From the NCBI GenBank assembly GCA_946480485.1, contig CAMLJW010000189.1, positions 1 to 9,408 of the forward strand: 9,408 bases of DNA, in the 5' to 3' direction. Origin of the DNA: an uncultured Streptomyces sp. Its GTDB lineage: Bacteria > Actinomycetota > Actinomycetes > Streptomycetales > Streptomycetaceae. This document shows positions 232-9,407 of this stretch, one piece after another. The position numbers and the translations under genes were made by a program. Position 1 is the first letter of the stretch; each line of letters begins with the position of its first letter. Below the pieces are notes generated by a model. That model saw nothing but the letters and a program-made list of their open reading frames with translations. It did not search any database and was not told where the DNA came from.

Positions 232-236
232 CTCGG

Positions 237-310
237 AGCCGCCTTCGGGATTCGAACCCGAGACCTACGCATTACGAGTGCGTTGCTCTGGCCATCTGAG
301 CTAAGGCGGC
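237..310 (-). tRNA. tRNA-Thr, anticodon CGU
   Basis: A full cloverleaf reads on the minus strand. It has a 7-bp acceptor stem (GCCGCCT with AGGCGGC), a D stem GCTC/GAGC with a 9-nt loop, an anticodon stem ACGCA/TGCGT with loop CTCGTAA, a 5-nt variable loop, and a T stem TCGGG/CCCGA with loop TTCGAAT. The anticodon CGT reads the Thr codon ACG, one of the two preferred Thr codons in high-GC genomes. The discriminator is U (complement of position 237). The next bases are CCG rather than CCA, so the CCA tail must be added enzymatically, which is common in actinomycetes. All stems pair perfectly, so this should be functional. tRNA 3' ends such as 238-262 are frequent integration targets in Streptomyces, but no element is inserted here. 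Confidence 0.95.
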
Positions 311-411: not shown

Positions 412-2046
412 TCAGGTTGCTGAGCAGCTCTTTTCCTTGGTGGGAGGGGTGCCTTGCAGGAGGTAGCGGTTGATCGTGGAGTCGATGCAGGCGCTGCCGC
501 GGCCGTATGCGGTGTGACCGTCGCCGTCGTAGGTGAGGAGGGTGGCGGAGGAGAGCTGGGCGGCAAGGGACTGGGCCCAGCGGTAGGGGGTCGCGGGGTC
601 GCGGGTGGTGCCGACCACGACGACGGGTGCGGCTCCCTTCGCCTCGATGCGGTGCGGTTCACCAGTCGGCATCACGGGCCAGTACGCGCAGTTGAGGGAC
701 GCCCACGCAAGGCCCCTGCCGAAGACCGGGGAGGCCTTCTCGAAGGAGGGGAGGGCTTCCCCTACCGCCTCGGGGGAGGAGAAGGCCGCCGGCAGATCCA
801 GGCAGTTCACCGCCGCGTTCGCGAACATCAGGTTCGCGTACTGCCCGTCTGCGTCGCGCTCGTAGTAGCTGTCGGAGAGGATCAGCAGGCCCGCGCCGTC
901 CTTGTCCTTCATGGCCATGGTGAGGGCCTCGCGCAGCCGGGGCCAGGCCGCCTCGTCGTACATCGCCGCGATGACGCCAGTCGTCGCCAGTGCCTCCCCC
1001 AGCTTGCGGCCATCCGTGTCGCCCGCCTCGATGGGCGCGGTGTCGAGCTGCTGGAAGAAGGCCTTCAGGTTCCTGCCGACCTGTTTCGGAGTCGTTCCCG
1101 GGCCGCCCAGCGGGCAGTCGGACTGGCGCACGCAGTCCTTCGCGAAGGCCTGGAACGCCGTCTCGAACCCCGCCGTCTGGTCCTCGTTCGTCCTGCGGGC
1201 GGGCAGCGACGGGTCCATCGCACCGTCCAGAACCAGTCGGCCCACCCTGTCGGGGTACAAACCCGCGTACGTGGCGCCCAGGAACGTGCCGTACGAGGCG
1301 CCGACGTACGTCAGCCTGTCGTCCCCCAGTGCGGCGCGCAGGACATCCATGTCGCGGGCCGCCTCGACCGTTGACACATGGCGCAGCAGTTCGGGCGAGT
1401 GTCGCCCGCAGCCCTCGGCGAACTCCTTGAAGCCGTCGACCAGTTCGTCCTTCTCCCGCGCGTTGTCGGGGGTGATGTCCATCTGCGTGTAGGTGTCCAT
1501 CTCGCGGCCGGTGAGGCATTCGACCGGCTCACTGCGGGCGACGCCACGCGGGTCGACGGCGACCATGTCGTAACGGGCGCGGACGTCAGCCGGGTATCCG
1601 ACACCCGCGTACGACTGGAGGTAGCCGACCGCCGAACCGCCCGGGCCGCCCGGGTTGACCAGCAGCGAACCGATCCGCTTGCCCGGGCCCGTGGCCTTCT
1701 TGCGGGAGACGGCCAGCTTGATGTCGCCGGAGGCCGGCTCCGCGTAGTCGAGCGGCGCCTTCAGGGTGGCGCACTCGAAGTCGGGGACACCGCAGTCGCG
1801 CCAGTTCAGCTTCTGTCCGTAGTACGGAGCGAGCGCCGGCGGTGTGGCCTTGGGCAGCGCGTCCAAAGCCGAGGCCCCTGCCGGGCTCGCGGAGCTCATC
1901 GAACTCCCCGTGGAGCAGGCGGAGATGAGCAGTCCAGCGGCCGCGAGCAGCACGCCGCACGCACGAAGGGAGCGGTGGGAGAGGGTCGACCTGGCCCGGA
2001 TCGACCGGCCCCGGGAGGTTCTGAGCTGGCGCCTGTTACTCATCAC
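412..2046 (-). CDS. Secreted lipoprotein alpha/beta-hydrolase, peptidase S33 / tripeptidyl aminopeptidase type
   Basis: The 544-residue product resembles the Streptomyces tripeptidyl aminopeptidase family (Tap, SlpD and SlpE), which are exported serine exopeptidases that remove short N-terminal peptides. Visible family marks are the oxyanion-region NPGGPGGS (131-138), the nucleophile elbow GASYGT with Ser251, the acidic residue Asp483 in TTRDPATPY, and His511 in GDGHTAYG. That completes a Ser-Asp-His triad in the usual order. The N terminus has an Arg-rich segment, a hydrophobic stretch (31-42) and a lipobox ISAC with Cys44, followed by a Ser/Ala/Pro linker. I therefore infer a membrane-anchored extracellular lipoprotein. 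A twin-arginine pair at 5-6 makes Tat export possible, although it sits unusually far from the hydrophobic core. The start is GTG at 2046, with AGGG 10 nt upstream; an ATG at 2043 is the alternative. Substrate specificity cannot be read from sequence, and an esterase role is possible. Confidence 0.9.
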   Translation of the reverse strand: MMSNRRQLRTSRGRSIRARSTLSHRSLRACGVLLAAAGLLISACSTGSSMSSASPAGASALDALPKATPPALAPYYGQKLNWRDCGVPDFECATLKAPLDYAEPASGDIKLAVSRKKATGPGKRIGSLLVNPGGPGGSAVGYLQSYAGVGYPADVRARYDMVAVDPRGVARSEPVECLTGREMDTYTQMDITPDNAREKDELVDGFKEFAEGCGRHSPELLRHVSTVEAARDMDVLRAALGDDRLTYVGASYGTFLGATYAGLYPDRVGRLVLDGAMDPSLPARRTNEDQTAGFETAFQAFAKDCVRQSDCPLGGPGTTPKQVGRNLKAFFQQLDTAPIEAGDTDGRKLGEALATTGVIAAMYDEAAWPRLREALTMAMKDKDGAGLLILSDSYYERDADGQYANLMFANAAVNCLDLPAAFSSPEAVGEALPSFEKASPVFGRGLAWASLNCAYWPVMPTGEPHRIEAKGAAPVVVVGTTRDPATPYRWAQSLAAQLSSATLLTYDGDGHTAYGRGSACIDSTINRYLLQGTPPTKEKSCSAT

Positions 2047-2216: not shown

Positions 2217-3422
2217 TCACCCCGCCCGCAACGCCATCGTCATCGCCTCCACCGCCAGCAGCGGCGCCACATTGCGGTCGAGGGCCTCGCGGCAGGCGGC
2301 GATCGCTTCTATGCGGCGCAGGGTCGCTTCGGCGGAAGTACCGCGTGCGAGGCGCTCCAGCGTGTCCTGCATATCCGTGTTCGCGAGGGCGAGGCTGGTG
2401 CCGAGCTGGAGGGCGAGGACGTCGCGGTAGAAGGCGGTGAGGTCGACCAGGGCGAGGTCCAGGCTGTCGCGCTGCGTACGCGTTCTGCGGCGCTTCTGCT
2501 TTTCCTCCAGTTCCTTCATCACGCCTGCGGTGCCGCGCGGCATGCGGCCGCCCTGGGCCGCGCCGAGCGCCGCTTTCAGCTCCTCGGTCTCCTTCCCGTC
2601 TATCTCCTCGGCCATCTGCTTGGCGTCCTCAAAGGCCGCGTCGATCAGCTCCTGGGCCGCCTTGAGACAGCCGCCGACGTCGTCGATGCGGAGCGGAAGC
2701 TTGAGGACGGCGGCGCGGCGCTCGCGGGCGCGCTCGTCCGTGGCCAGGCGGCGGGCGCGGCCGATGTGGCCCTGGGTGGCGCGGGCGGCGGCGGCCGCGA
2801 CGTCCGGCTCGATGCCGTCGCGACGTACGAGGACGTCGGCGACCGCGGCCACGGGCGGCGTCCGGAGCGTGAGGTGGCGGCAGCGGGAGCGGATGGTGGG
2901 CAGGACGTCCTCGACGGAGGGCGCGCACAGGAGCCAGACCGTGCGCGGGGCGGGCTCTTCGACGGCCTTCAGGAGTACGTTGCCCGCGCCTTCCGTGAGG
3001 CGGTCGGCGTCCTCCATGACGATGACCTGCCAGCGGCCGCCCGCCGGGGCCATCTGGGCGCGTCGGACCAGGTCGCGGGTCTCCTTGACACCGATGGAGA
3101 GGAGGTCGGTGCGGACGATCTCCACGTCGGCGTGGGTGCCGATCAGGCTTGTGTGGCACCCGTCGCAGAACCCGCAACCGAGAGCTCCGCCGAGGGCGCG
3201 GTCAGGGCTCAGGCACTGGAGGGCCGCCGCGAAAGCCCTTGCCGCGGTGGAACGGCCCGACCCCGGCGGGCCCGTGAACAGCCAGGCGTGCGTCATCTTC
3301 GACGCCTCAGGGGGCGCAGTGCCGGCCGCCGCCGCCGTGACCAGGGCGTCGGCATCCCGGGCGGCGGCGTCGAGCTGCGCGCTCACCTTCTCCTGCCCCA
3401 CCAGGTCATCCCATACGGGCAT
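2217..3422 (-). CDS. holB: DNA polymerase III clamp-loader subunit delta-prime
   Basis: The 401-residue protein is the delta-prime subunit of the replicative clamp loader, which helps load the beta clamp on primed DNA. It begins with the typical VWDDLVGQ motif. It has a Walker A-like GPPGSGRST (51-59) in which Arg57 stands where ATP-hydrolysing members carry Lys, a four-Cys zinc module (Cys70, 83, 86, 89), a Walker B-like VIVMEDAD (133-140) and the SRC motif (179-181) that supplies the arginine finger to a neighbouring subunit. The C-terminal part (about 230-401) is helical, with a basic Lys/Arg patch at 303-318, and would be the collar domain. I chose ATG at 3422 because family similarity starts there and GGAAGGG lies 9 nt upstream. 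The frame is open to 3629, but that 69-residue extension is low-complexity with no family similarity. The gap to tmk is 229 bp and to the hydrolase 170 bp. Confidence 0.93.
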   Translation of the reverse strand: MPVWDDLVGQEKVSAQLDAAARDADALVTAAAAGTAPPEASKMTHAWLFTGPPGSGRSTAARAFAAALQCLSPDRALGGALGCGFCDGCHTSLIGTHADVEIVRTDLLSIGVKETRDLVRRAQMAPAGGRWQVIVMEDADRLTEGAGNVLLKAVEEPAPRTVWLLCAPSVEDVLPTIRSRCRHLTLRTPPVAAVADVLVRRDGIEPDVAAAAARATQGHIGRARRLATDERARERRAAVLKLPLRIDDVGGCLKAAQELIDAAFEDAKQMAEEIDGKETEELKAALGAAQGGRMPRGTAGVMKELEEKQKRRRTRTQRDSLDLALVDLTAFYRDVLALQLGTSLALANTDMQDTLERLARGTSAEATLRRIEAIAACREALDRNVAPLLAVEAMTMALRAG

Positions 3423-3590
3423 GGGTTGCCGCCCTTCCGTCGCACTGTGCCGTGTCGCGTCCCATTGTGCGGGAGGGGACTGACAACGGGGTGTCACGCT
3501 GGGTGAGCGGGGCTCGGCGCGGACCTCCAAAGGGACACGAGCTCCGAGGGCAGCCAAGCCCCCCGCGGCGGCCCACACGGCGGCCGGCGG

Positions 3591-3618
3591 GGCGACGCCG
3601 TGCGTCAGCGGCGTCGCC
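3591..3618 (-). terminator. GC-rich hairpin after tmk
   Basis: A perfect 10-bp inverted repeat (GGCGACGCCG 3591-3600, CGGCGTCGCC 3609-3618) with an 8-nt loop lies 34-61 nt downstream of the tmk stop. It lacks a T-tract. Its position between tmk and holB suggests it ends or attenuates tmk transcription, so holB probably has its own promoter, although I could not find a convincing one in 3423-3590. Confidence 0.45.
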
Positions 3619-3651
3619 GCCAACGACACCGCACGTCAGCGCGTCCGTACG

Positions 3652-6600
3652 TCAGCGCCCTCGGCGCCCCCGCTCCCCGTCCCAGTCGTCATCCTCACGC
3701 GGGCCCAGCAATTCGTCCGCCAGCGTCGGGAGATCGTCCAGCGGGGTCTCCTCCGCCCAGTCCGAGCGCGGACGTCGACGCGAGCCGTCCTCGGGGTCGA
3801 CCTGGGGCAGCTCGCGGGTGCGGGCGTCGGAGCCGTCGGGCGCCGGTGGCTCCTCACGGAAGTACCCCGGGGGCACCCGGTCCGCCGGGTCACTCCCCCA
3901 CTCGCCCCCACGGTCCTCCCGTACGGGAGGGAGTACGGCTGTCTCACCGGCGGCCCCGTGCGGCTCCGGAGGCTGCGGCAGCACAGTTGTCTCGTCGTCG
4001 GCCCCCTGCGGCGGTTGCGACAGCACGGCCGTCTCCTCCGCGTCGGGCCCGGCGTCGCGGGGCGGCACGGGAGGCAGCACGGCGGTCTCGTCGGCCGGGC
4101 CTGCGGACGCGTTTGTCGGCGTCACGACAGGCGTCGGGACCGTCGTCTCGTTGTCGCGCACTTCGGCCGAGGAACCGGATTCCTCCCTACCGGCGGAAGC
4201 CGACCCGGCAGCCGACCCGGCAGCCGACTCCGCGGCCGCGGCGGGGGCCTCCGAAGCCGCAGCCCGCCGAGCCTCCTCGGCCCGCAGCAGCGCCTCCTCA
4301 GCCTTCCGCTGCTTCTCCAGGCGCCGCTCCTCCGCCTCCCGGCGGAGCCGCGCCTCCTCGGCGGCCTGCTTGCGCAGGCGCTCCTGCTCGGCCGCGCGGG
4401 CCTGCTCCTGCGCGAGCCGCCGCGCCCGCTCCTCCGCGGCCCGCTGGCGCGCCTCTTCGGCCCGCCTCCGGGCCTCCTCGGCCTGCCGCTCGGCCTCGCG
4501 CCGCTGTGCCTCCTCCAGCTCGCGCTGCCTGCGTTCCTCTTCCTCCGCGCGCAGCCGGGCGAGCTGCTCCTGCCGCTCGCGCTCGAGGCGCTCCTCCTCG
4601 GCCTTGCGGGCGGCCTCTTCCGCGGCGCGACGCCGCGCCTCCTCCTCGGCCGCCTTACGGGCCTCCTCCTGGGCCTTCACCTCGGCCTCGGAGAGCGGGA
4701 GCAGCATGTCGAGCCGATGCCGGATCACCGTGGTGACGGCCTCGGGCTCCTGCCCGGCGTCAACCACCAGGTAGCGCGTGCAGTCGGCCGCCGCGAGCGT
4801 CAGAAAACCGGACCGCACGCGCGCGTGGAACTCGGCGGGCTCCGACTCCAGCCGGTCCGGCGCCTCCGTGAACCGCTCGCGGGCGGCCTCCGGCGACACA
4901 TCGAGCAGCACCGTCAGATGCGGTACGAGTCCGTTCGTCGCCCAGCGGTTGATACGGGCGATCTCGGTCGGAGACAGGTCGCGGCCCGCTCCCTGGTACG
5001 CCACCGAAGAGTCGATGTACCGGTCCGAGATCACGACCGCGCCCCGCTCCAGCGCGGGCCGCACCACGGTGTCCACGTGCTCGGCGCGGTCGGCGGCGTA
5101 CAGCAGCGCCTCGGCCCGGTGCGACAGCCCGGCCGAGGACACGTCCAGCAGGATCGACCGCAGCCGCTTCCCCACGGGGGTGGCGCCCGGCTCACGGGTC
5201 AGCACGACCTCGTGCCCCTTGGCCCGGATCCACTCCGCGAGTGTCTCGGCCTGCGTTGACTTCCCGGCCCCGTCACCGCCCTCCAGGGCGATGAAGAACC
5301 CGGCGGTTGCGGGCACCTGCGCGGGATCGTCTCCGCCCCGCAGCGCGTCCCGCAGATCCTTGCGCAGCGGTACCCCGGACCGGTCGTCGGCCTTGGCCAG
5401 CACCAGCGCGGCGACCGGCAGCAGCAGCGCGCCGACCAGCATCAGGGTGAAGGCCGCGCCCCCGTGCGCGAACACGAACCTGCCGTTCTCCAGCCGGTGC
5501 GGCCCGATCGCCGCGGCCACCACAGGGGCCACCACGGCTCCCAGGGCGACGAAAACCCGTACGACCGCGTGCAGATGCTCCGTCGTACGCGCCCGCCGGT
5601 AGTCCTCGGTCTCCTGGTCGAGCAGCGTGTGTCCGGTGTGCGCGGCGGTGCCCGCGCCGACGCCTGCGAGCAACACGACCAGGAGCACCGTGGTGACGTC
5701 CGGAACGAGCCCGGCGGCGAGCAGCGCGACCCCTGTGAAGGCGATCGCCAGGGCGAGCAGCCGGCGCCGCGACAGAGAAGGCAGCAAGGAGGATGCCCTG
5801 CGGATCCCGAAGACCGTGCCCCCGGTCAGCGCGAGCACGAGCAGCCCGTACAACACCGGCCCGCCGCCCAGGTCCTTCGCGTGCAGCACGGCGACGGCGA
5901 CGGCCGCCGCGACCGCCCCGGCCACCGCCGCGCAGGCCAGGACCAGCAGTGGAATCGCGCCGGTACGCCCCTTGTCGACGCCGGTGCCCGCCTTGGGGCG
6001 GCGCATGCCCTCGAGCGGCGACCGTGCGCGCGGGGTGCGCCCATCGGGCAGCTCCAGCAACGTGAGCACCGACAGGGACGCGGCGAACAGGCCCGCGGAG
6101 ACGTACGACGCGAGGGCCGCCTGATGCTGGTCGAACCAGGCCAGTCCGGCGCCCAGCAGGTTGTTGACGAGCCCGGCCAGGACGAGGGTCGCGGCCGCGA
6201 GGGGCACTGCCACGCATCCCGTACGCAGCGACAGGCGCCGCAGGGCGTCCATGTTGTCCGGCAACCCGGGAGGGGCGGTGCGCAGCGCTTCGTTGCAGAG
6301 GCGGGGCCGTGAGACGGGGGAGGGGATCGTCGCACTCTCCAGCGGCGGTGCGGGCAGCAGCGCGGGCGCCGCGCTCTCCCGGCACACCGCCCAGAAGCGC
6401 TCGGCGACCCCGGTCACGAAGGTGGTCACCAGGATCACGGCCAGCGCGTCGTCGGGCGTCCAGTCGATCCACAGGGGCGCGATGATCAGCAGCGCTGCGC
6501 GCAGCCCGTCCGCGCCGACCATGGTCCAGCGGCGGTCGAGCGGCCCCTCCGGCGCGGTGAGGGAGGTGAGCGGTCCGAGGAGCACCGCCCCGAAGAGCAG

Positions 6601-6879
6601 CGTCGCCAGAATGCGCGTCCCGAAGACGGTCGCCACGGCGAATGCCACACCTCGGTAGCCGCCGGCGAAAGAGCCTTCGGAGATCGCCGCCTGAAGGGCC
6701 AGGACGACCAACACGAGCAACGCGAGGGCGTCGCCGACACTACCCACGAGCTGTGCGCTCCACAGCCGCTTGAGCTGCGGCCGACGCAGTAGAGCGCGGA
6801 CAGCGCGCTCCCGGGAGTCTGCGACCAGGGCGTCGTCGGGGGCCGAGGTCTGGGCCGTAGGCTGCTCCGCTCGCGTCAT
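3652..6879 (-). CDS. tmk: Membrane-fused thymidylate kinase: MFS-like domain + dTMP kinase + helical arm + acidic tail
   Basis: This 1075-residue protein is about five times the length of a stand-alone dTMP kinase (about 210 aa). Residues 38-495 form roughly eleven to twelve hydrophobic segments with an MFS-like opening (LKRLWSAQLVGSVGDALALL). The kinase occupies about 526-727: P-loop GGDGAGKS (534-541), REPG (562-565), DRY (619-621) with SSVAYQGAGR, and lid segment APDRLE (673-678). The P-loop lacks the Arg of type I enzymes, so it looks type II-like, as in E. coli. All key kinase residues are present, so it should phosphorylate dTMP to dTDP at the cytoplasmic face. Residues 731-875 are Glu/Arg/Ala-rich helix, and 876-1075 is an acidic, Pro-rich, probably disordered tail with repeated E-T-[A/T]-V motifs. 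The start is ATG 6879, with a -10-like TAGGCT six nt upstream and no good ribosome-binding site. Similar long Tmk proteins are known in Streptomyces; whether the membrane domain transports anything is unknown. Confidence 0.93.
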   Translation of the reverse strand: MTRAEQPTAQTSAPDDALVADSRERAVRALLRRPQLKRLWSAQLVGSVGDALALLVLVVLALQAAISEGSFAGGYRGVAFAVATVFGTRILATLLFGAVLLGPLTSLTAPEGPLDRRWTMVGADGLRAALLIIAPLWIDWTPDDALAVILVTTFVTGVAERFWAVCRESAAPALLPAPPLESATIPSPVSRPRLCNEALRTAPPGLPDNMDALRRLSLRTGCVAVPLAAATLVLAGLVNNLLGAGLAWFDQHQAALASYVSAGLFAASLSVLTLLELPDGRTPRARSPLEGMRRPKAGTGVDKGRTGAIPLLVLACAAVAGAVAAAVAVAVLHAKDLGGGPVLYGLLVLALTGGTVFGIRRASSLLPSLSRRRLLALAIAFTGVALLAAGLVPDVTTVLLVVLLAGVGAGTAAHTGHTLLDQETEDYRRARTTEHLHAVVRVFVALGAVVAPVVAAAIGPHRLENGRFVFAHGGAAFTLMLVGALLLPVAALVLAKADDRSGVPLRKDLRDALRGGDDPAQVPATAGFFIALEGGDGAGKSTQAETLAEWIRAKGHEVVLTREPGATPVGKRLRSILLDVSSAGLSHRAEALLYAADRAEHVDTVVRPALERGAVVISDRYIDSSVAYQGAGRDLSPTEIARINRWATNGLVPHLTVLLDVSPEAARERFTEAPDRLESEPAEFHARVRSGFLTLAAADCTRYLVVDAGQEPEAVTTVIRHRLDMLLPLSEAEVKAQEEARKAAEEEARRRAAEEAARKAEEERLERERQEQLARLRAEEEERRQRELEEAQRREAERQAEEARRRAEEARQRAAEERARRLAQEQARAAEQERLRKQAAEEARLRREAEERRLEKQRKAEEALLRAEEARRAAASEAPAAAAESAAGSAAGSASAGREESGSSAEVRDNETTVPTPVVTPTNASAGPADETAVLPPVPPRDAGPDAEETAVLSQPPQGADDETTVLPQPPEPHGAAGETAVLPPVREDRGGEWGSDPADRVPPGYFREEPPAPDGSDARTRELPQVDPEDGSRRRPRSDWAEETPLDDLPTLADELLGPREDDDWDGERGRRGR
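3925..4152 (-). repeat. Five E-T-[A/T]-V motifs in the Tmk tail
   Basis: The C-terminal tail of Tmk carries the motifs NETTV (910-914), DETAVL (930-935), EETAVL (948-953), DETTVL (962-967) and GETAVL (978-983). Their first Thr residues, at 912, 932, 950, 964 and 980, are spaced 14-20 residues apart, each in acidic, Pro-rich surroundings. The DNA differs between copies, so the motif appears to be held at protein level rather than being a recent tandem duplication. Acidic-Thr-x-x-hydrophobic sites resemble actinobacterial Ser/Thr kinase targets and FHA-domain ligands; that role is inferred. Confidence 0.7.
4198..4228 (-). repeat. 12-bp tandem repeat in tmk
   Basis: The 12-bp unit AGCCGACCCGGC occurs at 4198-4209 and 4210-4221, with a partial third copy to 4228. 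It encodes the SAAGSAAGSA linker between the helical arm and the acidic tail. Copy number of such a linker repeat could vary without shifting the frame. Confidence 0.8.
4255..4689 (-). other. Segment encoding a Glu/Arg/Ala-rich continuous helix in Tmk (residues 731-875)
   Basis: About 145 residues contain almost only Glu, Arg, Ala, Lys, Gln and Leu, with no Pro or Gly, in recurring EEARR/EEERL blocks. This is either a coiled coil or an ER/K-type stable single alpha-helix. Leu is sparse and not clearly in heptad register, which leans towards a single helix. It directly follows the kinase lid and C-terminal helices, so it would project the tail away from the membrane-bound kinase. Confidence 0.75.
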
Positions 6880-7046: not shown

Positions 7047-9407
7047 TCAGCCCTCCGAAGCCGCCGTCTTCTTGGCTGCTGCCTTCTTCGCGGGAGCCTT
7101 CTTGGCGGCCGTCTTCGAAGCCGCTGTCTTCTTGGCTGCCGTTTTCTTGGCGGGAGCCTTCTTGGTGACCGTTTTCTTGGCGGGAGCCTTCTTCGCCGTC
7201 TTCTTCACCGGCCCCTTCGCCCGCTTCTCCGCGAGCAGCTCGAAGCCACGCTCAGGAGTGATCGTCTCGACGCTGTCGCCGGACCTCAGGGTCGCGTTGG
7301 TCTCGCCGTCGGTGACGTACGGCCCGAAGCGCCCGTCCTTGACGACGACCGGCTTCCCGCTGACCGGGTCCTCGCCGAGCTCCTTCAGCGGCGGCTTGGC
7401 GGCCGCGCGGCCGCGTACCTTGGGCTGCGCGTAGATGACAAGGGCTTCGTCAAGGGTGATCGTGAAGAGCTGGTCCTCGCTCTCCAGGGAGCGCGAGTCG
7501 GTGCCCTTCTTCAGGTACGGCCCGTAGCGCCCGTTCTGCGCGGTGATCTCCACGCCCTCGGCGTCCTTGCCGACGACGCGCGGCAGCGACATCAGCTTGA
7601 GCGCGTCCTTCAGGGTCACCGTGTCCAGGGACATCGACTTGAAGAGCGAGGCCGTGCGCGGCTTGACGGCGTTCTTGCCCGTCTTCGGGGTGCCCTCGGG
7701 AAGCACCTCGGTCACATACGGCCCGTAGCGCCCGTCCTTGGCGACGATCTGGTGCCCCGTGATGGGGTCCGCACCCAGCTCGAAGTCGCCGCTCGGCTTG
7801 GCGAGCAGCTCCTCCGCGTACTCCACGGACAGCTCGTCCGGAGCGAGATCGTCCGGGACGTCCGCACGCTGGTGGGTCTCGGAGTCCTTCTCGCCGCGCT
7901 CGACGTACGGGCCGTAGCGCCCGACGCGCAGCACAATGCCGTTGCCCACGGGGAACGACGACACCTCGCGGGCGTCGATCGCGCCCAGGTCGGTGACGAG
8001 CTCCTTGAGGCCGCCCAGGTGGTCCCCGTCGCCGTTCCCGGCCTCGGCCGCGCTGCCGCCGACGCCCCTGCCCGGGGCGGAGCCGCTGTCGGACGCGGTT
8101 TCGCCGAAGTAGAACCGCTTCAGCCACGGCACGGACTGCGCCTCGCCGCGCGCGATGCGGTCGAGGTCGTCCTCCATCTTGGCCGTGAAGTCGTAGTCGA
8201 CGAGCCGCCCGAAGTGCTTCTCCAGAAGGTTGACCACGGCGAAGGACAGGAAGGACGGCACCAGGGCCGTGCCCTTCTTGAAGACGTACCCGCGGTCGAG
8301 GATGGTCCCGATGATCGACGCGTACGTCGACGGACGGCCGATCTCTCGCTCTTCGAGCTCCTTGACCAGGCTGGCCTCGGTGTAGCGGGCCGGGGGCTTG
8401 GTGGCGTGGCCGTCGACCGAGAGCTCTTCGGCGGACAGCGCGTCGCCCTCGTTGACCTGCGGGAGCCGACGCTCACGGTCGTCCAGCTCGGCGTTCGGGT
8501 CGTCCGCGCCCTCGACGTACGCCTTGAGGAAGCCGTGGAAGGTGATGGTCTTGCCGGACGCGCTGAACTCCGCGTCGCGACCGTCGGAGGCCGTGCCACC
8601 GATCTTCACCGTCACGGAGTTCCCGATCGCGTCCTTCATCTGGGAGGCGACCGTCCGCTTCCAGATCAGCTCGTAGAGCTTGAACTGGTCGCCGGTCAGT
8701 CCGGTCTCGGCGGGCGTGCGGAAACGGTCGCCGGAGGGTCGGATCGCCTCGTGCGCCTCCTGCGCGTTCTTGACCTTCCCGGCGTACGTCCGCGGCCGGT
8801 CCGGCAGGTAGTCGGCGCCGTACAGCTGCGCGACCTGGGCTCGGGCCGCGGCGACCGCCGTGTCCGACAGGGTCGTGGAGTCCGTACGCATGTACGTGAT
8901 GAAGCCGTTCTCGTACAGCTTCTGCGCCACCTGCATCGTGGCCTTCGCGCCGAAGCCGAGCTTGCGCGAGGCCTCCTGCTGCATCGTCGTCGTACGGAAC
9001 GGCGCGTAGGGGGAGCGGCGGTACGGCTTCGACTCGACAGACCGGACGGAGAAGTTCGTCTGCTCGAGGGCGGCGGCGAGCGCGCGAGCGTTCGCCTCGT
9101 CCAGGTGGAGCGTGTTCGCGCCCTTCAGCCGGCCGAGCGAGTCGAAGTCGCGGCCTTGGGCCACGCGCTTGCCGTCGACCGTGGCCAGGCGGGCGGCCAT
9201 GGAGGAGGGATCACTCCGGTCGCCGGCGCGCCCCGTGCCGAAGGTGCCCGTGAGGTCCCAGTACTCGGCCGAGCGGAACGCGATGCGCTCGCGCTCCCGC
9301 TCGACGACCAGGCGGGTCGCCACGGACTGGACACGGCCCGCCGACAGACGCGGCATGACCTTCTTCCACAGCACCGGGGAGACCTCGTAGCCGTAGAGGC
9401 GGTCGAG
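7047..9407 (-). CDS. topA: DNA topoisomerase I (type IA), N terminus beyond window
   Basis: The 786 visible residues are the C-terminal part of a type IA topoisomerase, which relaxes negative supercoils through a 5'-phosphotyrosyl intermediate. The frame is open to the window edge, and the first visible residues (LDRLYGYEVSPVLWKK) are internal topoisomerase sequence, so the start and the Toprim domain lie to the right. The conserved LSAGRVQSVATRLV follows. The catalytic Tyr is in ITYMRTDST, encoded at 8894-8892, and corresponds to Tyr319 of E. coli. After a Gly/Ser-rich linker (around 8030-8100), four C-terminal repeats each contain GR[YF]GPY (near 7910, 7725, 7525 and 7330). They replace the zinc fingers of E. 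coli TopA, as is usual in actinobacteria. The protein ends in a Lys/Ala tail. Streptomyces TopA is about 950 aa, so roughly 165 residues are missing from view. Confidence 0.95.
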   Translation of the reverse strand, partial: LDRLYGYEVSPVLWKKVMPRLSAGRVQSVATRLVVERERERIAFRSAEYWDLTGTFGTGRAGDRSDPSSMAARLATVDGKRVAQGRDFDSLGRLKGANTLHLDEANARALAAALEQTNFSVRSVESKPYRRSPYAPFRTTTMQQEASRKLGFGAKATMQVAQKLYENGFITYMRTDSTTLSDTAVAAARAQVAQLYGADYLPDRPRTYAGKVKNAQEAHEAIRPSGDRFRTPAETGLTGDQFKLYELIWKRTVASQMKDAIGNSVTVKIGGTASDGRDAEFSASGKTITFHGFLKAYVEGADDPNAELDDRERRLPQVNEGDALSAEELSVDGHATKPPARYTEASLVKELEEREIGRPSTYASIIGTILDRGYVFKKGTALVPSFLSFAVVNLLEKHFGRLVDYDFTAKMEDDLDRIARGEAQSVPWLKRFYFGETASDSGSAPGRGVGGSAAEAGNGDGDHLGGLKELVTDLGAIDAREVSSFPVGNGIVLRVGRYGPYVERGEKDSETHQRADVPDDLAPDELSVEYAEELLAKPSGDFELGADPITGHQIVAKDGRYGPYVTEVLPEGTPKTGKNAVKPRTASLFKSMSLDTVTLKDALKLMSLPRVVGKDAEGVEITAQNGRYGPYLKKGTDSRSLESEDQLFTITLDEALVIYAQPKVRGRAAAKPPLKELGEDPVSGKPVVVKDGRFGPYVTDGETNATLRSGDSVETITPERGFELLAEKRAKGPVKKTAKKAPAKKTVTKKAPAKKTAAKKTAASKTAAKKAPAKKAAAKKTAASEG
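7050..7205 (-). repeat. Lys/Ala-rich C-terminal tail of TopA, with direct DNA repeats
   Basis: The last 52 residues of TopA are almost only Lys, Ala, Thr and Pro in KKTA/KKAPAKK units before the final SEG. At DNA level a 25-bp unit (CCGTTTTCTTGGCGGGAGCCTTCTT) is exactly repeated at 7139-7163 and 7169-7193, with further degenerate copies across the tail. In Streptomyces and mycobacteria such lysine repeats are reported to bind DNA and to increase TopA processivity. Confidence 0.9.
7311..7926 (-). repeat. Four TopA C-terminal repeats with the GR[YF]GPY motif
   Basis: The motif appears four times in TopA: VGRYGPYVERG, DGRYGPYVTEV, NGRYGPYLKKG and DGRFGPYVTDG, from N to C terminus. At DNA level each gives a similar stretch near GTACGGCCCGTAGCGCCC (plus strand). 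These are the topoisomerase C-terminal repeat modules typical of actinobacteria, which bind DNA and take the place of zinc ribbons. Confidence 0.85.

Follow-up and report, generated by a model that had tools for sequence, protein, structure and literature searches.

Thymidylate (dTMP) kinase is usually regarded as a small soluble enzyme, and the locus described here raises the question of why such an enzyme should form part of a large membrane protein. The window, a stretch of 9,408 nucleotides from an uncultured Streptomyces sp. (GenBank assembly GCA_946480485.1, contig CAMLJW010000189.1), carries between topA and holB a gene whose product joins a major facilitator superfamily (MFS) domain to a dTMP kinase, a charged helix and an acidic tail (Table 1). 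The fusion is confirmed: as an earlier reading of this DNA from sequence alone had proposed, a single open reading frame (ORF) of 1075 amino acids (aa) matches both MFS and kinase profiles. The best explanation, to which we give a probability of about two in three, is an actinobacterial fusion of a cytosolic kinase with a membrane domain that is transporter-like rather than passive.

The arrangement is not special to the window; it is genus-wide, and its MFS-kinase core is far more widespread. Kinase frames of fused length (924–1298 aa) and over the family cut-off were found in 149 of 151 Streptomyces genomes; the two exceptions were G105, in which only residues 1–280 were found, up to base 5763 of a contig 5767 bases long, and G054, with residues 925–1073 only in a frame running from the contig start. 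In the class sample 199 of 393 genomes had a match of E 1e-80 or better to a fused relative, a few of these being genes cut by contig ends, and 45 had no match at 1e-20. In the phylum sample 64 of 246 genomes matched at 1e-75 or better (11 of these were already in the class sample); 20 loci from these 64 each had a single ORF matching both the MFS and the kinase profile, with holB nearby in 20 and topA in 18. Fused proteins came, among other named sources, from Candidatus Nanopelagicus, BACL4, Carbonactinospora and Sporichthyaceae. The arrangement topA - [MFS domain::dTMP kinase] - holB recurs widely among actinobacteria, and the window holds its Streptomyces form. High-GC DNA yields long spurious frames, and a mis-assembled or mis-called gene could in principle mimic a fusion; given the recurrence in genus, class and phylum, with both domains in one frame across the phylum sample, this can be virtually dismissed. 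Neither did we find a conserved internal start from which the kinase could be made by itself: of 104 possible start codons close to the junction in 74 loci, just two had a Shine–Dalgarno-like site.

All P-loop, TREPG, DRY and lid residues are present in the window kinase, which scores 172.7 bits against a TIGR00041 cut-off of 83.25 and 158.1 bits against a PF02223 cut-off of 27; the motifs and family scores together bear out the description of a complete dTMP kinase. The best phmmer match was the Thermus Tmk (E 2.9e-47), and the structure model supports the kinase fold, with a TM-score of 0.95 to the Thermus thermophilus enzyme (PDB 5x7j). This stand-alone bacterial kinase of the TIGR00041 type has its fold and motifs in common with the window protein but lacks the membrane domain, helix and tail. 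The kind of dTMP kinase described by NF005923/PRK07933, found in Corynebacterium glutamicum, bears the same enzyme name, but the window protein misses the NF005923 cut-off (62.3 versus 193 bits). Three fused kinases, at L204, L206 and L214, have a long insert in the lid region with P-loop, DRY and lid residues intact.

Copy number was assessed in Streptomyces and in 20 phylum genomes with fused loci by scoring every PF02223 candidate. A second, stand-alone tmk, which the sequence-only reading had named as the finding that would speak against an essential fused enzyme, was looked for in relatives of the window: 14 of 16 Streptomyces genomes had a single match over the cut-off, and these 14 include six close relatives of the window (G001, G543, G544, G545, G019 and G102). 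Each of the 20 phylum genomes had one PF02223 match; among four genomes of 1.2–1.3 Mb, G258 and G231 had one match each, and G356 and G178 one each over the cut-off. In the relatives tested, the fused kinase is usually the only recognisable dTMP kinase of the cell.

The most informative proteins were those of a lineage that surfaced while class members with weak kinase scores were being collected. This G371 lineage comprises 26 loci, 22 from the G371 family and four (G379, G403, G362 and G283) added by sequence. The kinase is degenerate in 24 of these, with the fused ORF persisting, and intact in two (G419 and G173). All 24 degenerate kinases have lost the lid DR(L/I/M)E motif, 21 have the P-loop lysine replaced and eight have also lost both P-loop glycines; the MFS domains of the same loci retain 0.85–0.88 of conserved columns. 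Among 80 genomes searched, a further dTMP kinase that exceeds the NF005923 cut-off was found in exactly the 24 with degenerate fused kinases, as stand-alone frames of 231–437 aa located away from the fused gene, and in none of the 55 with intact ones. Of these 55, 45 were checked residue by residue (33 class, 10 phylum, G419 and G173; the 10 phylum kinases deviate at Asp597 only) and ten, all Streptomyces, by full-length family score. Because decay was seen only where another dTMP kinase is present, these data support the fused kinase being the working enzyme elsewhere. That the fused kinase of the window is itself dispensable, another Tmk doing the work as in these 24 genomes, is very unlikely even with extra Tmk-like genes in some Streptomyces: the window motifs are intact, the ratio of nonsynonymous to synonymous substitution rates (dN/dS) of the kinase is 0.079 in 79 Streptomyces sequences, 14 of the 16 fully scored genomes have no other match over the cut-off, and NF005923 was not found in any of ten Streptomyces, 32 candidates having been scored in each.

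In four clades that hold 17 of the 24 degenerate proteins, Nei–Gojobori estimates of dN/dS were 0.074, 0.078, 0.106 and 0.044 for the MFS domain, as against 0.331, 0.260, 0.391 and 0.164 for the kinase. The MFS domain is under strong purifying selection after loss of the active site and hence has a role independent of phosphoryl transfer. The membrane part is therefore unlikely to be a mere anchor, an option that the sequence-only reading had left standing beside a sensor or transporter; the fusion, kinase motifs and gene location given in that reading were upheld, and this option was not. A purely tethering role, holding the kinase at the membrane, for instance close to sites of replication, would accord with the adjoining topA and holB genes, with the modelled placement of the kinase directly after the last helix and with an MFS domain that has no known substrate. 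We nevertheless consider it quite unlikely: the MFS domain is better conserved than the kinase where the active site is gone, charged residues within its helices are conserved in 127 of 127 proteins, and a twelve-helix domain with almost no indels exceeds the needs of an anchor. A dTMP-sensor role for the degenerate kinases was also considered and was weakened by the eight most degraded, which have lost Asp597 and Arg620 and, in half of them, Arg598.

The membrane domain is predicted to adopt a twelve-helix MFS fold. The window protein only just reaches the PF07690 cut-off (33.4 versus 33.4 bits), and all eight aligned members match this profile at E <= 0.001, seven of them also matching MFS_3. 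Motif A, between transmembrane helices (TM) 2 and 3, is clear in seven relatives and altered in the window, where LDRR is left. Across the aligned fused proteins the charged residues are conserved: D50 in TM1 and R/K89 in TM2 (127/127 each), D115, R116 and R127 around TM3 (124/128, 127/128 and 128/128) and R/K431 in TM11 (129/129), where R441 also lies; glycine pairs are conserved in TM8 and TM10. Such charges and glycine pairs are what one would expect of a cycling MFS protein.

In three relatives the membrane domain matched DHA3/MFS_3-type exporters best among known families, namely the TIGR00900 H+ antiporter model at 104–125 bits and EntS at 49–50 bits. Here, by comparison, the domain is fused to a nucleotide kinase and all scores fall below NCBIfam cut-offs; for TIGR00900 the window reaches 33.8 and the three relatives at most 124.9 of the 319.6 bits required. 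Lysophospholipid-transporter models matched more weakly, also below cut-offs, and relatedness to either kind of model is only a hint. The acyl-ACP-phospholipid acyltransferase model PRK08633, itself an MFS fusion, likewise places cytosolic enzyme domains behind an MFS domain and scores 62–74 bits in three relatives; its enzyme, however, is a lipid acyltransferase, and the window protein has no lipid domain. A profile search of solved structures with the MFS part returned nothing below E 0.008.

A transporter fold joined to an enzyme invites the idea of substrate feeding, in which a thymidine nucleotide or nucleoside enters through the MFS domain and is immediately phosphorylated by the kinase. 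The positive residues in TM2 and TM11 would suit such a substrate, and the many structural matches take in phosphate-ester (G6PT) as well as nucleoside (YegT) transporters. The structural matches were tied across unrelated transporters and are uninformative on substrate, so that identification of the solute from structure was dropped; the sequence relatives are the H+ antiporter, enterobactin-exporter and lysophospholipid-transporter models, and the MFS domain outlives the kinase activity. We regard import of this kind as unlikely. A further and still tentative possibility, with clearly less than an even chance, is a thymidine-nucleotide-linked transporter in which the dTMP-kinase fold serves as the nucleotide-reading cytosolic gate of the MFS domain and catalysis is an additional function that another gene can take over; the G371 lineage would then be the case in which the kinase turned pseudokinase while transporter and kinase fold stayed together.

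We favour a transporter-like domain that has a solute of its own and would be physically linked to the thymidine nucleotide pool, to which it might also respond. On this model the kinase would follow the twelfth helix, facing the cytoplasm, and, judged from sequence and copy number, would convert dTMP to dTDP, presumably at the membrane. The membrane domain may be a conformationally cycling DHA3/MFS_3-like transporter of a small amphipathic or nucleotide-related solute, which the cytosolic kinase-fold domain could dimerise and, where active, couple to the thymidine nucleotide pool. In the Streptomyces proteins the rod-like helix and the tail with its motifs would form an extra arm in the cytosol, with docking or phospho-regulation as its probable function.

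Several observations weigh against this picture of a working fused enzyme and an independently useful transporter. The 24 degenerate cases are one lineage and the replacement may thus be a single event; in G353, a member of the G371 family, neither a fusion nor NF005923 was found; and 19 of the 56 NF005923-negative genomes had just 32 of their 33–58 first-look candidates scored. As the degenerate kinase fold is retained with dN/dS below 1, some of this selection may concern the MFS-kinase pair as a whole. The Streptomyces MFS domain is the more divergent branch, with motif A altered and dN/dS above that of the kinase: in 79 sequences (the window and 78 of the 80 loci L001–L080, the others dropped for N's or length) and 150 sampled pairs, MFS dN/dS was 0.21 with 0.1% gaps, and the order of the two domains is opposite to that in the degenerate lineage. 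In the class, 149 of 393 genomes match at kinase strength only (1e-33 to 1e-69), that is, without the MFS domain. Finally, redundancy is possible in a Streptomyces minority, as some genomes hold extra Tmk-like genes: by a hand count, mostly of unlisted rows, 48 of 151 have further Tmk-family matches; G012, G118 and G157, chosen for having several matches, carry two additional PF02223 matches each above the cut-off; and G002 and G013, the two exceptions among the 16 genomes above, also carry extra ones. G013 had been put into that set because of its extra match, a 335-aa Tmk-family frame over the TIGR00041 cut-off (G013:C5:289879-290418, L193) on another contig than the fused gene.

The comparison of domain order across Actinobacteria that the sequence-only reading had suggested was run, and the MFS domain was never found apart at the locus: in the loci examined, including 25 with a stand-alone tmk, the MFS profile (E 1e-5) matched nothing other than the fusion, which speaks against a split MFS gene at the stand-alone loci. 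Same-strand ORFs of at least 250 aa with at least six hydrophobic segments occur within 4.5 kb upstream in six of the 20 loci L157–L176 and in L124, all more than 2.5 kb from tmk. On quick unrooted trees of the kinase (63 rows) and HolB (62 rows), fused and stand-alone forms were split with two label changes each, as against 19–20 in shuffles; such trees are equally compatible with gain and with loss of the fusion. L156 has a stand-alone kinase that groups with fused kinases on the kinase tree, possibly reflecting loss of the MFS domain, and L123 and L124, both from the 1.8 Mb genome G495, are one fused and one stand-alone tmk locus, perhaps from a mixed assembly.

Many Actinomycetota, including Streptomyces and Nanopelagicus-like bacteria with genomes of 1.2–1.3 Mb, seem to rely on a transporter-like membrane protein for the essential dTMP kinase step. 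The lineage with decayed kinases amounts to a natural separation-of-function experiment, in which cells keep the membrane part without the enzyme, and the role of the membrane domain is directly testable by ordinary Streptomyces genetics. In annotation lines, Streptomyces coelicolor SCO3542 and Streptomyces lividans 20575 carry the entry 'Integral membrane protein with kinase activity', next to that of 3541, listed as a subunit of DNA polymerase III (PMC6302529); SCO3542 is elsewhere listed as 'Putative thymidine kinase' (PMC3897704), and Streptomyces avermitilis SAV4622 as 'putative thymidylate kinase' in the site table of a paper on Rex (PMC5355995). The name and neighbour in that line, rather than an alignment, suggest that SCO3542 and 20575 are orthologues of the window gene. 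Such annotation lines were all that the full-text literature yielded, with no description of the fusion found there; supplements and most subscription journals lay outside the search.

Table 1. Features of the window, with positions counted from its first letter.
Feature	Position	Strand	Evidence
MFS::dTMP-kinase fusion gene	3652..6879	-	1075 aa; one ORF with Pfam and NCBIfam domains
MFS membrane domain, residues ~16-500	5380..6834	-	12 long predicted helices; beta-hairpin between last two helices
Asp50, middle of first long helix	6730..6732	-	kept in 127/127 aligned fused proteins having a residue there
Linker with short helix, residues 501-526	5302..5379	-	structure model; dN/dS 0.40
dTMP kinase domain, residues 527-728	4696..5301	-	TIGR00041 172.7 bits; TM-score 0.95 to 5x7j; dN/dS 0.079
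P-loop EGGDGAGKST, residues 533-542	5254..5283	-	sequence motif
DRY motif, residues 619-621	5017..5025	-	sequence motif
Lid region DRLESEPAEFHARVR, residues 675-689	4813..4857	-	sequence motif
Charged E/R/A helix, residues ~736-885	4225..4674	-	near-constant length in Streptomyces (0.4% gaps)
Variable acidic tail with repeated [DE].?TxxLP motifs, residues ~886-1030	3790..4224	-	motif count; dN/dS 0.47
C-terminal peptide LADELLG, residues 1053-1059	3703..3723	-	conserved; surrounding 30 residues dN/dS 0.126
topA, DNA topoisomerase I, upstream neighbour, runs off window	7047..9407	-	TIGR01051 565.4 bits
holB, DNA polymerase III delta' subunit, downstream neighbour	2217..3629	-	NF005926 546.9 bits
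TAP-like alpha/beta-hydrolase	412-2046	-	PF08386, PF00561
tRNA-Thr (CGT) gene, downstream of TAP-like peptidase gene	235-310	-	

Beyond the kinase, the E/R/A-rich helix and the tail differ in their constraint in the 79 Streptomyces sequences, with 0.4% gaps and 86% identity for the helix and 16% gaps and 60% identity for the tail. The motif [DE].?TxxLP occurred 505 times in 108 tails versus a shuffled mean of 3.6 (largest 12), and 103 of 120 proteins had three to six copies each, these sequences being related and not independent; any connection of the motifs with Ser/Thr kinases or with docking is conjecture. The C-terminal peptide L[ASVTI]DE..[GS] was present in 118 of the 120 best matches of the window query, the named ones all being Streptomyces, in 71 of 120 proteins from the L147 query and in none of 120 from a Nanopelagicus-like query.

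The position of the gene beside topA and a clamp-loader gene, also part of the sequence-only reading, agrees with the TIGR01051 and NF005926 matches of its neighbours. Because the family match of holB begins at residue 70, its frame is probably over-long at the 5' end, with the true start probably near 3422-3425. A relative of the TAP-like hydrolase lies near holB in many class loci too.

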